From: Planctomycetota bacterium
GTDB taxonomy: Bacteria > Planctomycetota > Planctomycetia > Pirellulales > UBA1268
Direction of reading: 5' to 3'
Assembly (NCBI GenBank): GCA_003671185.1
Contig: QWPN01000156.1
Span: 1 to 36,700 of the forward strand
DNA length: 36,700 bases
In this document: one piece after another, positions 1 through 5,170 of the stretch
How positions within the stretch are numbered: position 1 is the first letter of the stretch
Layout: every line of letters begins with the position of its first letter
Notes under the pieces: model-generated
Database searches by the model: none
The model's input: the letters and a program-made list of their open reading frames with translations, nothing else
What the model was told of the DNA's origin: nothing
Position numbers and translations under genes: made by a program

Positions 1-1667
1 ACGCGCAGGCTGTAGTCGCCGTCCTGCGGCACCGTGAAGCGCAGAAATTCGGTGGTGCTGTAGGTGGCGGCCGAACTGGCGACGAGGGACTCGCCGGAGC
101 CGGTGCTACGCCACACCTCCAGGGAGAGATTGCTGAGCGCCACGTCCGTAGCCGATGCCAGCGTCGTGCCCAGGGTGCGATCGGCGAACCAGGTGAGGCA
201 GGCCGTGAAGGTATCGCCGGCCGCGAGCGGCGCCGCGAACGAATAGGAGTTGATGCGGCCACTGCCCGCCGTTGAGTCGCTGAACACGCTCCCCAGGTCC
301 CAACCACGAAGCGCCAGGCCACTGCCACCGGTGTCACCCGGCAGGCCCAACGTGGTGTTCTGTCCAGCGATCACGTACTGTGCTCCGTTGAAGGTGATGC
401 TGGCGGGATCGCCGACATAGATCCGGTACGTCGCGTCGAGGTCGAGAATGCCCGCTCCCGAGGCCTGGTCGAGCGCCTGCGTGGTGGTGATCACGCCGCC
501 CAACGTGGCCTGGCCATTGTTCCAGCCTGCCGGGGCCCTGGCTCCCGCCAGCAGGGCCGCTTTGACCACGCGGGCGTCGAGCATTTCGCTCGACGCGACT
601 GCGTCATCAACGAACAGTTTGCCGGCATCGACCATCAGGGCCGCCGCGCCGGCCACGACCGGTGCTGCGAAGCTGGTGCCGCCGATGTTCGGAACGTAGT
701 AGGCCCCCGCGGGTATCGTGGGTTCGTCGAGGGTTGGGTCGGTGCCCGACGTGTGGCCGCCGGTCACGCCGCCGTAGAGGGCCAGCGTCAGGTCGTCGCC
801 CGGGGCGGCGATGTCGACGGTGGGCCGCACGGCGGGGATCATCGTGTTGGTGGCGGGATTGAAAAAATCACCCGGGCCGCGGCTGGAGAACCCGGCCACG
901 GCCGAAAATGGTGGCGTGAGAGTGTCCCCCGTGAGCGCCGCCACCGAGATGCTGTTGTACCCCGAGGCCGGGCCGCCGACGGTGTTGGCCGTGGGGCCCG
1001 CGTTGCCGGCGGCCATCACGGCGACGACGTTGTTCTCCAGCGCCAGGGCGTCGATGGCGATCGTTTCGGCGAACTGCCCGGGTGAATCCGCATAGCCCCA
1101 GCTGCTGTTGAGCACGTTGGCCTTGAGTGTGGAGCCGCCTCCGCTGATCCCGGTCCGCATCGTGGTCACGTAGGGGTAGAGGAAACTCTCCTCGGTGATG
1201 TCGAACGCCCCCGTGTAGTCGCTGCCAGTTTCCGGTATCCAGGCCGTGGCGATCGAGCCCGACCAGAGCTGGGCCGTAGGGGCGATGCCTTCTTGGAAGG
1301 TGTACAACCCGGTGCCGCCGATCGCCTGGCCGACCATCGTGGCGTGCCAGTCGAATTGGCCCAGTTGAGTCCCCACGATGGCCGGATTCTTCACGTACTG
1401 CGAGATGCGGCCGGTCAGGGTGTCGTGGCCGTTCCAGATCGCGCCGGCTTCGACGTTGGCGACGACCGCCCGGCTGCCCCCGAAGCCGAGCCCGTAGAAG
1501 GTCCGGGCTCCGACCAGGTCATTGACATAGACGCCGTTGAAGATGTTGTTGGCGGGCGTTCCGGAGTTGCTGCCCACGATGGCGTGGGTCTCGGATGCGC
1601 CCAAAATGCTGGCCGCTGCGGCAACGACCACCAGCAGGCGGCGCCACGCTGTGCTGCCCCTTCGCAT
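1..1667 (-). CDS. S8 family (subtilisin-like) serine peptidase, truncated at window edge
   Basis: Continuous minus-strand frame from ATG at 1667 with signal-peptide-like N-terminus (MRRGSTAWRRLLVVVAAAASILGASETHA). Contains FDWHATMVGQAIGG (His region), NSSWGYAD, AVMAAGNAGP and NIGGTSFAAPVVAGAAALM (Ser motif). The Asp motif reads VANVEAGAIWNGHDTL. Confidence 0.85.
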   Translation of the reverse strand, partial: MRRGSTAWRRLLVVVAAAASILGASETHAIVGSNSGTPANNIFNGVYVNDLVGARTFYGLGFGGSRAVVANVEAGAIWNGHDTLTGRISQYVKNPAIVGTQLGQFDWHATMVGQAIGGTGLYTFQEGIAPTAQLWSGSIATAWIPETGSDYTGAFDITEESFLYPYVTTMRTGISGGGSTLKANVLNSSWGYADSPGQFAETIAIDALALENNVVAVMAAGNAGPTANTVGGPASGYNSISVAALTGDTLTPPFSAVAGFSSRGPGDFFNPATNTMIPAVRPTVDIAAPGDDLTLALYGGVTGGHTSGTDPTLDEPTIPAGAYYVPNIGGTSFAAPVVAGAAALMVDAGKLFVDDAVASSEMLDARVVKAALLAGARAPAGWNNGQATLGGVITTTQALDQASGAGILDLDATYRIYVGDPASITFNGAQYVIAGQNTTLGLPGDTGGSGLALRGWDLGSVFSDSTAGSGRINSYSFAAPLAAGDTFTACLTWFADRTLGTTLASATDVALSNLSLEVWRSTGSGESLVASSAATYSTTEFLRFTVPQDGDYSLR

Positions 1668-2018: not shown

Positions 2019-2537
2019 TCAGCCGATCATCAGCACGGCGATGGCGATGACGGCTGCACCGACACCGACGGGCAGCGTCAGGTACGGCCTCGCCAGACCG
2101 GCTTCAGCCAGCATCTCGGACCGTGCGTCGGAGGACAGGCCAAGCAAATTTTCGAGGTCGTCGAAACTGATGGGGTGAGAAAGCAAGGCGTCGGCGCCCG
2201 ACTCTCGCGCCTCTGATTCGGCGATGCCCCGGCGACGATCGTGGATGCGCGGGGCATCGACCACCGCCACCCTGGAGTCGGTGGGGATGCCCGCCTTGAG
2301 CAGGGAGACGAAATCGTGCCCCGACATGTCGTCGAGGTGTTCGGCCACCAGCCATGCATCTACATCGAGGTGCCGGGCGAGTTTCAAGGCCTCGGCTCCA
2401 CTGGAGCGGAAGTGGATCGTGAGCCTCCCCTGCCTGGCGCTCGCGGCCAGAGGCCTGTAGGCCTCGAATCGCGGATCGACGACCACCACGTGCGGCACGA
2501 ACGGTTCGCCGAGATCGAACTGCAGCGACGGGCTCAT
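2019..2537 (-). CDS. receiver-like (degenerate response regulator) protein with C-terminal transmembrane segment
   Basis: HVVVVDPRFEAYRPL...DAWLVAEHLDDMSGHDFVSLL...VAVVDAP...GADALLSHPISFDDLENLL resembles a REC fold. C-terminus LPVGVGAAVIAIAVLMIG is hydrophobic. SD-like GGAG precedes the ATG at 2537. Confidence 0.65.
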   Translation of the reverse strand: MSPSLQFDLGEPFVPHVVVVDPRFEAYRPLAASARQGRLTIHFRSSGAEALKLARHLDVDAWLVAEHLDDMSGHDFVSLLKAGIPTDSRVAVVDAPRIHDRRRGIAESEARESGADALLSHPISFDDLENLLGLSSDARSEMLAEAGLARPYLTLPVGVGAAVIAIAVLMIG

Positions 2538-2592
2538 GGTGGTCTCCAGAAGAACGCGTCTGCCGGTCACATGATGACCGAGAAAGCCCCAC

Positions 2593-3114
2593 TCACTCCA
2601 CGGTCACGGCGTCATGCGACGTCGGCGCCCGCGACCGGCGGATGACGTCCACGGTCACGGGACGAACGAGGTAACCGGACACGCCGGACGCCAAAGCCCG
2701 CTGCTCGTCTTCCAACCGGTAGATGTCGGACACGATGAAGATGCCGGAACGCATGCCCACGCCCACGCGGTCGAGCGACACCCGCGAGCCGGAGAGCAGC
2801 GGATCGACGTCGCCCTGCAGCACGTGCGGCGAGAGCATGTCGAGCAGATCGAAGCCTGACATGTCGGGCAGATCCGAGGCCAACAGCCAGGCATCGGCGC
2901 GGAATCGCCGGGCCAGCCTGACCGCGGAACGGCCATCCACGCAGAAGTGCAGACCAACGTCACCGGACTGGGCAGCCTGCACGAAATCCGGATACCGATC
3001 ACAGGTGGCATCGACGATCACGATCTCGTGGATGCCGACGCTCCGCAGCGACGCGAGGCTGGATGCCGACCGATGATCGGCGCTGGTGTCTGAAATGGCC
3101 TGCGGGGAATTCAT
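2593..3114 (-). CDS. receiver-like (degenerate response regulator) protein, paralogue of the downstream gene
   Basis: EIVIVDATCDRYPDF...DAWLLASDLPDMSGFDLLDML...GIFIVSDIYRLEDEQRALASGVSGYLVRPV aligns with the neighbouring ORF. SD-like AGAGG precedes the ATG at 3114. Confidence 0.65.
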   Translation of the reverse strand: MNSPQAISDTSADHRSASSLASLRSVGIHEIVIVDATCDRYPDFVQAAQSGDVGLHFCVDGRSAVRLARRFRADAWLLASDLPDMSGFDLLDMLSPHVLQGDVDPLLSGSRVSLDRVGVGMRSGIFIVSDIYRLEDEQRALASGVSGYLVRPVTVDVIRRSRAPTSHDAVTVE

Positions 3115-3332
3115 GTGAAGCGCCTCTGATGTTGAAACGGACAAGTCTTCGTGAACCGTGTTTTTTCAGTGCTGGACCGGCGCGGCGAACGTGACCGCGA
3201 CAAGTCGCACATTTTCTGGGAGGTCAAGTACCGGCCATCAACTCGCAGCAAACCGTCGAACACCAATCTCCCACAGACCTTGCAGCCAGCAGACAACCGC
3301 CAGCCGCTCGGCACCGGGAATCGATTTCGAAT

Positions 3333-3455
3333 TCAGACCAAGGAAACGATCGACAGGAACACAGCGATCGGGAGGGCGCAGAGCAGGAGGTCGACCTGCG
3401 TGAGAGCCCAGCGCGATCCAGCGGCGCAGGAACCCGAACCGGACGAGATGTTCAT
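3333..3455 (-). CDS. 40-aa putative single-pass membrane peptide
   Basis: MNISSGSGSCAAGSRWALTQVDLLLCALPIAVFLSIVSLV. Strong SD (aaaaaGGAGtttgctcATG) and one hydrophobic helix at the C-terminus. Confidence 0.5.
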   Translation of the reverse strand: MNISSGSGSCAAGSRWALTQVDLLLCALPIAVFLSIVSLV

Positions 3456-3534
3456 GAGCAAACTCCTTTTTCCGACAGACTGAATTCGGTGGCAGACTGA
3501 GGCGGAACGCCCGACCGCTGCCAAGGAAGCAGAT

Positions 3535-3549
3535 GCACGCGGCGTGCCA
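3535..3549 (-). promoter_or_regulatory. candidate sigma54 (-24/-12) promoter
   Basis: Minus strand reads TGGCACGCCGCGTGC, against consensus TGGCACG-N4-TTGC: one mismatch (T to G), correct GG/GC spacing. Lies about 80 nt upstream of the 40-aa ORF start. Confidence 0.4.
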
Positions 3550-3662
3550 GAACTGCGTGGCGTTTCGAAAAAAATCGGAAATGGCTGAAATGAGGCCCAA
3601 AAATCGAGTCGTGAGCCGAAGGTCAAGGGCCGGTTCGGCAACCATACAGCCGGGGCGCTGGA

Positions 3663-3714
3663 GCGAATCGCCCCACTCGCTTGGTCGCTGGCGACCGGGG
3701 GTGGGGCGATTCGC
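3663..3714. repeat. 52-bp nested inverted repeat
   Basis: Perfect 14-bp arms GCGAATCGCCCCAC (3663-3676) and GTGGGGCGATTCGC (3701-3714), enclosing a second stem GGTCGC/GCGACC (3683-3688/3691-3696). Confidence 0.9.
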
Positions 3715-3812
3715 ACCACTCCCTGGAACAGCCGATAAGACGGGTTTTTCAGCCTGGGGCAACCCTGCGGCCCGTGATCAGATCCCCCGGGCTGCCGCCG
3801 CAGGTGTGCCGG

Positions 3813-4940
3813 CTACCCGGCAAGTATCCGTCTCACGACGTCGGCTGCGACGCCGTCGACGACGTCCACGCTGCCGAGGCGGCTGGGGAGCACGAAACGG
3901 AGCCTGCCGTCCAGGGTCTTCTTGTCCCGGCCCATGATGGCGAGCAGCAGTTCCGAATCGAACGAGCCGGCGACGCGGGGGTCGACGGGCAGCCCGAATG
4001 CCTCGATCAGCCGATCCTGTCGGGCAACGAGATCCTGGGGGATGCGGCCCAGGGCGGCGGCCAGCCGCGCGGCCAGCGCCATCCCGATCGCCACCGCCTC
4101 GCCGTGCAGCAGCTTGCCGTAGCCCGATGCCGTTTCGTAGGCATGGGCGAACGTGTGCCCGTAGTTGAGGGCCGCCCGCAGCCCGGAGATCTCTCGCTCG
4201 TCTCGTTCCACGACACCCGCCTTGATGGCGGCTGACCGCTCGACGGCCAACGCCAGGGCCTGTGGTTCCCTGGCCAGAAGGGCCGCCGCATGCTGTTCCA
4301 GCCAGGCGAAGAAGTCGGCATCGAGGATCATTCCGTACTTGATGATCTCGGCGATGCCGCTGACGAATTCCCGGTCCGGGAGCGTCACCAGGGTGTCGAT
4401 ATCCGCCAGCACGCCCCGCGGTTGCCAGAAGGCACCGACGAGGTTTTTGCCGGCGGCGAGGTTGATCCCCGTTTTTCCGCCGATCGCGCTATCGACCTGG
4501 GCGACAAGGGTGGTGGGAACCTGCCAGAGAGCGAGGCCGCGGGCGAACGTCGCCGCCACGAATCCCACCAGGTCCCCGACGACTCCGCCCCCCACGGCCA
4601 CCACGTGGGTGCCGCGGTCGACGGCCAGGCGGCCGAATTCGTTCCACAGCCGTTCCGCCTCCGCCGCCGATTTCGAGGCCTCACCCGAGGCCACGGTAAG
4701 AGCCGTCACGTCGATGCCGACGGCACGGATCGCCTCCGCGACCGTGGCGGCATGCGTGGCAGCGACGGCAGCGTCCGCGATCACGATGGCCCGCCGGGCG
4801 GCGGCGGAGCGCAGGCATGCGCCGCTGGATGCCAGGATGCCTCGTCCGCAGACGATGTCGTATGAGCGATCCGTGACCGCCGCCGCGTCGCCGGGGGGCG
4901 CTGCAACGACGGCCGGGAGATGAACTCTGATCCTGGCCAC
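3813..4940 (-). CDS. aroB: 3-dehydroquinate synthase
   Basis: VVAVGGGVVGDLVGFVAATFARGLALWQVPTTLVAQVDSAIGGKTGINLAAGKNLVGAFWQP and LNYGHTFAHAYE...LHGEAVAIGM. GTG start at 4940 close behind the upstream ORF's stop. Confidence 0.95.
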   Translation of the reverse strand: MARIRVHLPAVVAAPPGDAAAVTDRSYDIVCGRGILASSGACLRSAAARRAIVIADAAVAATHAATVAEAIRAVGIDVTALTVASGEASKSAAEAERLWNEFGRLAVDRGTHVVAVGGGVVGDLVGFVAATFARGLALWQVPTTLVAQVDSAIGGKTGINLAAGKNLVGAFWQPRGVLADIDTLVTLPDREFVSGIAEIIKYGMILDADFFAWLEQHAAALLAREPQALALAVERSAAIKAGVVERDEREISGLRAALNYGHTFAHAYETASGYGKLLHGEAVAIGMALAARLAAALGRIPQDLVARQDRLIEAFGLPVDPRVAGSFDSELLLAIMGRDKKTLDGRLRFVLPSRLGSVDVVDGVAADVVRRILAG

Positions 4941-4942
4941 GG

Positions 4943-5170
4943 TCAGGCGACGCTCACCCGGTCGAGGTCTGCCCGGGTGACCGCGATGACGCGGGCGAAG
5001 CCAGTGTGCTGCCGCACGTAATCGAGTTCCACAGCTTCCTGGGGGCTGGCATGGAGCAGCGACGCCACGCGATCTTTGTCCGCCTCGGACCAGTCTTCGC
5101 ACTCCGCGGGCCACACGGTGTGCCGCTCGACGACGAGGGCTTCACGGTACGGGTCGAAGGTGTTGGCCAT
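4943..5170 (-). CDS. small hypothetical protein
   Basis: MANTFDPYREALVVERHTVWPAECEDWSEADKDRVASLLHASPQEAVELDYVRQHTGFARVIAVTRADLDRVSVA. Its stop is immediately upstream of the aroB start. Confidence 0.6.
   Translation of the reverse strand: MANTFDPYREALVVERHTVWPAECEDWSEADKDRVASLLHASPQEAVELDYVRQHTGFARVIAVTRADLDRVSVA

Follow-up and report, generated by a model that had tools for sequence, protein, structure and literature searches.

Predicted sigma54-dependent PEP-CTERM operons with a 40-aa membrane peptide and two pseudo-receivers in one planctomycete family, and a possible membrane-linked feedback

PEP-CTERM proteins form a large class of proteins that bacteria export, and they are poorly understood. 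In Proteobacteria, Haft et al. (2006) described a PEP-CTERM sigma54 regulon with PrsK, PrsR and PrsT, whose motif they found among Proteobacteria only (PMC1569441). A short sensor-less activator, PspF, is subject to control in trans by PspA, which itself belongs to the PspF regulon (PMC3128695, PMC2763126). Exosortase is not mentioned in a 2025 survey of sigma54 regulons, and we found no account of a cassette that joins a small membrane peptide to pseudo-receivers in the literature searched, where coverage of subscription papers was thin.

Here we analyse a 36,700-nt stretch of DNA (the window; contig C138) from an 85%-complete planctomycete genome of 2.75 Mb, in which a first-pass annotation had proposed a sigma54-driven cassette working as one envelope-linked regulatory unit. 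Our best explanation of the whole, to which we give not quite an even chance, is a sigma54 PEP-CTERM operon with membrane-linked pseudo-receiver feedback. The relatives used for comparison are draft genomes, and gene calls are simple ORF choices. The names recA and recB denote receivers A and B throughout and have nothing to do with the recombinases.

The operon and its products

All coordinates of the first-pass annotation were found to be correct when the sequence was re-examined, including those of its two tandem receiver-like genes, one of which ends in a transmembrane (TM) helix (recA and recB; Table 1). The operon also extends beyond position 2019, a part that had been overlooked: recB is followed by a gene for an 83-aa secreted protein with an NDWQYPDPYFG motif, for which family searches gave no match, and then by a subtilase gene truncated by the contig end. 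The orthologues of this subtilase terminate in PEP-CTERM, and one of them (L042:6879-8759) carries both PF00082 (Peptidase_S8) and PF07589 (PEP-CTERM). In the window subtilase (2-1661, minus strand) the His and Ser motifs look intact, and the catalytic Asp motif reads VEAG, where Asp may be replaced by Glu.

Table 1. Features of the cassette and its surroundings in the window
Feature	Coordinates	Strand	Remarks
aroB	3813..4946	-	Pfam DHQ synthase domains; conserved upstream neighbour and syntenic landmark outside the unit
Predicted enhancer (UAS) palindrome, copy 1	3702..3718		TGGTGCGAATCGCCCCA on the minus strand; 17-bp, tandem, conserved
Second palindrome	3683..3696		GGTCGCCAGCGACC; between both UAS copies
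Predicted enhancer (UAS) palindrome, copy 2	3659..3675		TGGGGCGATTCGCTCCA on the minus strand; 17-bp, tandem, conserved
Predicted sigma54 -24/-12 promoter	3534..3549	-	TGGCACGCCGCGTGCA; conserved in 35/39 orthologous or paralogous cassettes; rpoN in genome
40-aa membrane peptide	3333..3455	-	MNISSGSGSCAAGSRWALTQVDLLLCALPIAVFLSIVSLV; SD AAGGAG; invariant columns, pN/pS
recA, soluble pseudo-receiver, 173 aa	2593..3114 (ATG 3114)	-	Phospho-Asp replaced by Ala
recB, pseudo-receiver, 172 aa, C-terminal membrane anchor	2019..2537 (ATG 2537)	-	Phospho-Asp replaced by Ala
Small secreted protein, 83 aa	1706..1957	-	NDWQYPDPYFG motif; homologues after recB in several genomes
Subtilase (S8) family protein	1..1661	-	Pfam PF00082, E=1.5e-19; runs off the left contig end

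The 40-aa ORF with its strong Shine-Dalgarno (SD) sequence, which had been put forward as a small membrane peptide, is a real gene: pN/pS is 0.33, with pN below pS in all 703 pairs compared, and by this measure purifying selection acts on the peptide family, which evolves as a protein. Seven columns (L, T, D, C, P, F and S) are invariant among 25 sequences, and the peptide terminates where its hydrophobic helix ends. The peptide profile matches 42 of the 397 genomes of the order, 40 of them in one GTDB family, where the peptide family spans several genera; the divergent genera g24 and g25 give weaker matches, several of them next to PEP-CTERM genes.

By sequence, recA and recB match the Pfam Response_reg family weakly and under the cut-off, and searches of Pfam, NCBIfam and the PDB returned only sub-threshold or marginal matches. 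AlphaFold models, which rest on 12-17 sequences, gave receiver folds for both proteins, and the best PDB matches of these models in Foldseek are receivers or response regulators (E 1e-6 to 3e-8); as modelled, then, recA and recB have the receiver fold. In recB the receiver domain is modelled with good confidence and the membrane tail, a C-terminal TM helix with a KD18 of 2.46, poorly. The phospho-acceptor Asp is absent from 24/24 recA-type and 25/25 recB-type homologues (49/49); its place is mostly taken by Ala, with Ser, Asn and other residues besides. Also lost is the second residue of the acidic pocket, and the Lys of recA is mostly Arg. Judged from these residues, the usual site of the pseudo-receivers cannot accept a phosphoryl group.

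The cassettes sit at several separate loci, and their gene content varies. The main type runs aroB, enhancers, promoter, peptide, small secreted protein, recA, recB, NDWQYPDPYFG protein and PEP-CTERM subtilase, with aroB upstream of the cassette at orthologous loci as in the window; the window copy is without the small secreted gene between the peptide and recA. This gene (about 140-160 aa) shifts its place in L043-L050, lying in either the peptide-recA or the recA-recB gap. The second type runs enhancers, promoter, short PEP-CTERM-like protein, peptide and recB-like gene, and cassettes of this type (L062, L065, L066, L068 and L072) lie near a gene of the endonuclease/exonuclease/phosphatase family. 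Public database records titled Candidatus Kuenenia stuttgartiensis (L030, L031 and L035) hold relatives of the window proteins with 55-85% identity; their titles look like misassigned MAG names.

Promoter, enhancer and the PEP-CTERM regulon

We collected 42 distinct peptide genes and used the 39 with at least 450 nt of upstream sequence for the promoter and enhancer counts of the cassettes, which come from related sequences and do not represent independent events. The reported -24/-12 match TGGCACGCCGCGTGC (3549-3535, minus strand, one mismatch) is present in the window. It had come with the caveat that it is itself a palindrome and might be a coincidence, and this caution was justified as far as the single match goes: at up to two mismatches the window holds 27 such matches, where 17.9 are expected, and one match is not significant alone. 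Conservation settles the point, since the element recurs with at most two mismatches in 35 of the 39 peptide genes and with at most one in 27, and on these grounds we reject a chance match. In first-order Markov shuffles of the same upstream regions, a promoter with at most one mismatch arose in 0.3% and the palindrome never. One exception (L043) has the peptide shifted to a later place in its operon, with the promoter before the first gene. Because the orthologous elements read differently (TGGCACGGAATGTGCA, TGGCACGCCGTCTGCA and TGGCACAGCGATTGCA), the self-palindromic look of the window copy is incidental and unconserved.

The palindrome noted further upstream also proved to be real, and consists of two copies of a 17-bp enhancer palindrome. 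Copies of this palindrome, TGGRGCGAWTCGCYCCA, lie approximately 110-270 bp upstream in 36 of the 39 peptide genes, tandem copies being common to the upstream regions, and the median distance from the -24 element up to the start of the nearest copy is 137 bp. In the window the two copies start 126 and 169 bp upstream of that element and 43 bp, or about four helical turns, apart. In 98 clusters the spacing of neighbouring copies is quantised at 22-23, 32-33, 43-44 and 66 bp, near whole turns of the helix, with R=0.84 at 10.5 bp. The sequence between the promoter and the enhancer copies has diverged among loci. Given this helical phasing and the distance from the -24 element, the layout is the usual one for sites of bacterial enhancer-binding proteins (bEBPs). 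Promoter, palindrome and gene order, whose conservation in relatives the first-pass annotation had proposed to check, are all conserved, the last as a recurrent operon.

In recA-type cassettes the enhancer copies flank a second palindrome, GGTCGCNNGCGACC, which is exact in the window. Of 52 cassette promoters, 15 have it within one mismatch, most of these being of the recA type; it is rare to nearly absent at ordinary PEP-CTERM promoters and may bind a further regulator.

In the source genome the exact enhancer sequence TGGNGCGAWTCGCNCCA occurs only at the window cassette and at a paralogous cassette on C117; a third cassette, on C37, has a copy with one mismatch, and two further one-mismatch matches, unassigned, lie on C91 and C103. 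Among 40 relatives, exact sites are found in those members of the family that have cassette genes, and G031 has a single isolated one; several relatives hold 10-32 sites. The 51%-complete genome G005 has enhancer sites, and recA and peptide searches found nothing there. We rejected two other readings of the palindrome, as a generic repeat or as an aroB terminator: it turns up away from aroB, at cassettes and at PEP-CTERM genes, cassette-negative members of the genus and family lack it, and a reversed control pattern gave zero matches in the 40 relatives.

For a regulon test, enhancer sites elsewhere were fetched, a promoter was sought within 330 bp, and the next gene was read. Of 27 enhancer-promoter pairs inspected outside the cassettes, 26 precede genes for PEP-CTERM proteins, with VPEP, a hydrophobic helix and a basic tail. 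Exosortase is present in every enhancer-positive genome tested in the genus, while G001 and G007, of the same genus, have no receivers, enhancer, peptide, exosortase or PEP-CTERM protein over the cut-off, and G022 and G023, of the same family, no receivers, enhancer, peptide or PEP-CTERM; the exosortase test among cassette-negative relatives covered G001 and G007. These comparisons support the assignment of the cassette to a PEP-CTERM/exosortase sigma54 regulon of one planctomycete family. They give the presumed envelope link a direct context in that regulon, and they back the view that promoter, enhancer, peptide and both pseudo-receivers are conserved together as a unit. On comparative grounds we are confident of the operon, its predicted promoter and enhancer, its regulon membership and the loss of the phosphorylation site, taken together.

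The regulon may be reduced in the source genome itself, since three PEP-CTERM genes there are without a clear enhancer. One of them (G000:C130:11823-13797; L155) has a near-perfect -24/-12 element and no recognisable enhancer palindrome, and the two others have neither element.

Candidate activator and competing explanations

The source genome encodes rpoN (C13) and gives eleven strong matches to the bEBP family (PF00158). As queries against the relatives we used the C-terminal parts of these eleven proteins, and then those of the three without an N-terminal domain. The protein at G000:C121:12201-13385 has 394 aa, with an AAA+ domain from near residue 15 and a Fis-type HTH, and without an N-terminal regulatory domain it has the architecture of a PspF-type short bEBP. 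Its type is found in 20 of the 21 enhancer-holding genomes of the family, the exception being 51% complete. The 19 other genomes gave weak matches only and no clear orthologue. Because this distribution matches that of the enhancer, the C121-type protein is strongly suggested, and in our judgement probable, as the activator. The assignment is not unique, as the short activators C36 and C162 also partly track the cassette. The C36 type is weakened as a candidate by its occurrence in families without the enhancer, and the C162 type was not found in the enhancer-positive genomes G016, G019 and G024. C37, which carries a recA paralogue, also encodes a bEBP; this one was rejected since its type also occurs in cassette-negative genomes. 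PrsR was likewise rejected: in a scan of eight of the eleven bEBPs (all but those on C37, C46 and C6) against TIGR02915, the best score was 372 bits, against a cut-off of 502.6.

The neighbourhood of the C121-type gene is conserved (G000:C121:6410-13385 and 13398 onward; L206 and L207). It contains a TPR protein and lpxA and, divergently, a periplasmic-binding protein followed by MCP, CheW, CheR, CheW, CheA-REC and CheB, which is the gene order of Wsp operons; no WspR-type (REC-GGDEF) gene was seen in the chemosensory stretch read. The 1460-aa TPR protein is related to PrsT, with 211 bits in G009, under the 312 cut-off of that family. Adjacency suggests that the chemosensory operon may be the input of the C121-type activator.

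We propose that an enhancer-binding protein, most likely the short sensor-less C121-type bEBP beside the Wsp-like operon, would bind the tandem palindromes and open the -24/-12 promoter. The membrane peptide, the two pseudo-receivers, the small secreted protein and the PEP-CTERM subtilase would then be produced alongside the other PEP-CTERM proteins of the cell. Since their usual phosphorylation site is missing, the pseudo-receivers could serve as constitutive protein-binding modules, and the tail anchor of recB and the helix of the peptide could hold a signalling partner at the inner membrane, the simplest candidates being the activator, which has no receiver, and its chemosensory input; this tethering would tune PEP-CTERM expression by feedback. 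The principle has a precedent in PspF, which is sensor-less and held in check by PspA. That receivers and peptide provide such feedback here is less likely than not, and the receivers might act elsewhere, e.g. on export.

Export is indeed the subject of the main rival, in which the peptide and the pseudo-receivers would be accessories of PEP-CTERM export or sorting near the exosortase, e.g. scaffolds or positioning factors at the inner membrane, co-regulated with their clients and taking no part in transcription control. It would account for the fact that both membrane elements stop exactly at the C-terminus, for the PEP-CTERM proteins inside the cassette operons, and for the exosortase found in every enhancer-positive genome of the family tested. 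Receiver folds, on the other hand, are usually signalling modules, the cassettes lie at several separate loci, and no cassette gene was found at the two exosortase loci inspected, so that we regard this role as a minority prospect. A further reading makes the pseudo-receivers decoys or adaptors in the Wsp-like pathway, where they would compete with true receivers for CheA-REC or CheB. The position of the candidate activator beside a Wsp-order operon, with no WspR-type output gene seen in the stretch read, would suit it, yet that adjacency is the activator's and not the receivers', which have no known kinase partner, and we consider it improbable. It is hardly credible that the unit is transcribed from an ordinary promoter next to a fortuitous -24/-12 match: one match this good is expected by chance in the window, but the element is conserved at 35 of 39 loci in a fixed relation to the enhancer copies, with diverged sequence in between.

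Returning to the proposed sigma54 operon with feedback, a bolder version, which we rate as unlikely, is that a Wsp-like pathway acts through the sensor-less activator to drive the sigma54 transcription of surface proteins sorted by exosortase. This would amount to a split, membrane-linked NtrC-type switch: the regulatory receiver of the activator would have become a separate, duplicated protein that can no longer be phosphorylated and is tied to the membrane along with a dedicated mini-membrane protein.

Comparison with known systems

The cassette suggests that a control module not yet described serves the building of the cell surface or the biofilm matrix. This planctomycete group has an enhancer sequence of its own, together with a short candidate activator and a conserved cassette of phospho-dead receivers and a mini-membrane protein. 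If the proposal is true, a control circuit open to testing becomes available for surface building in bacteria in which few regulators are known, along with a small-protein family missing from the libraries searched.

The nearest counterpart is the proteobacterial Prs regulon, in which PEP-CTERM genes likewise follow a -24/-12 site and a 17-nt activator motif that is repeated in some cases (PMC1569441); a PrsT-like TPR protein near the planctomycete candidate activator is a further likeness. In comparison with the published motif, however, the planctomycete enhancer TGGRGCGAWTCGCYCCA differs from the 17-mer of Haft et al., which ends in TTTACA, and the receiver and peptide cassette has no counterpart in their description (PMC1569441). 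Moreover, the best planctomycete candidate activator is without a receiver domain. Since the enhancer sequences differ and no PrsR reached the cut-off among the eight bEBPs scanned, the planctomycete system, by the features tested, works like the Prs regulon but is not a member of it.

With PspF and PspA it shares a sensor-less enhancer-binding protein and a regulon that includes a membrane-associated candidate for control, although the candidates here are receiver folds and a single-helix peptide rather than the PspA coiled coil, and their control of the activator is our inference. The gene order beside the candidate activator is that of the Wsp system, from which it differs in having a short enhancer-binding protein as divergent neighbour; no WspR was seen in the stretch read. 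Finally, like atypical response regulators, recA and recB combine a receiver fold with the loss of the phospho-acceptor Asp, but here the domains stand alone, one of them anchored at its C-terminus, in a predicted sigma54 PEP-CTERM operon with a mini-membrane protein.
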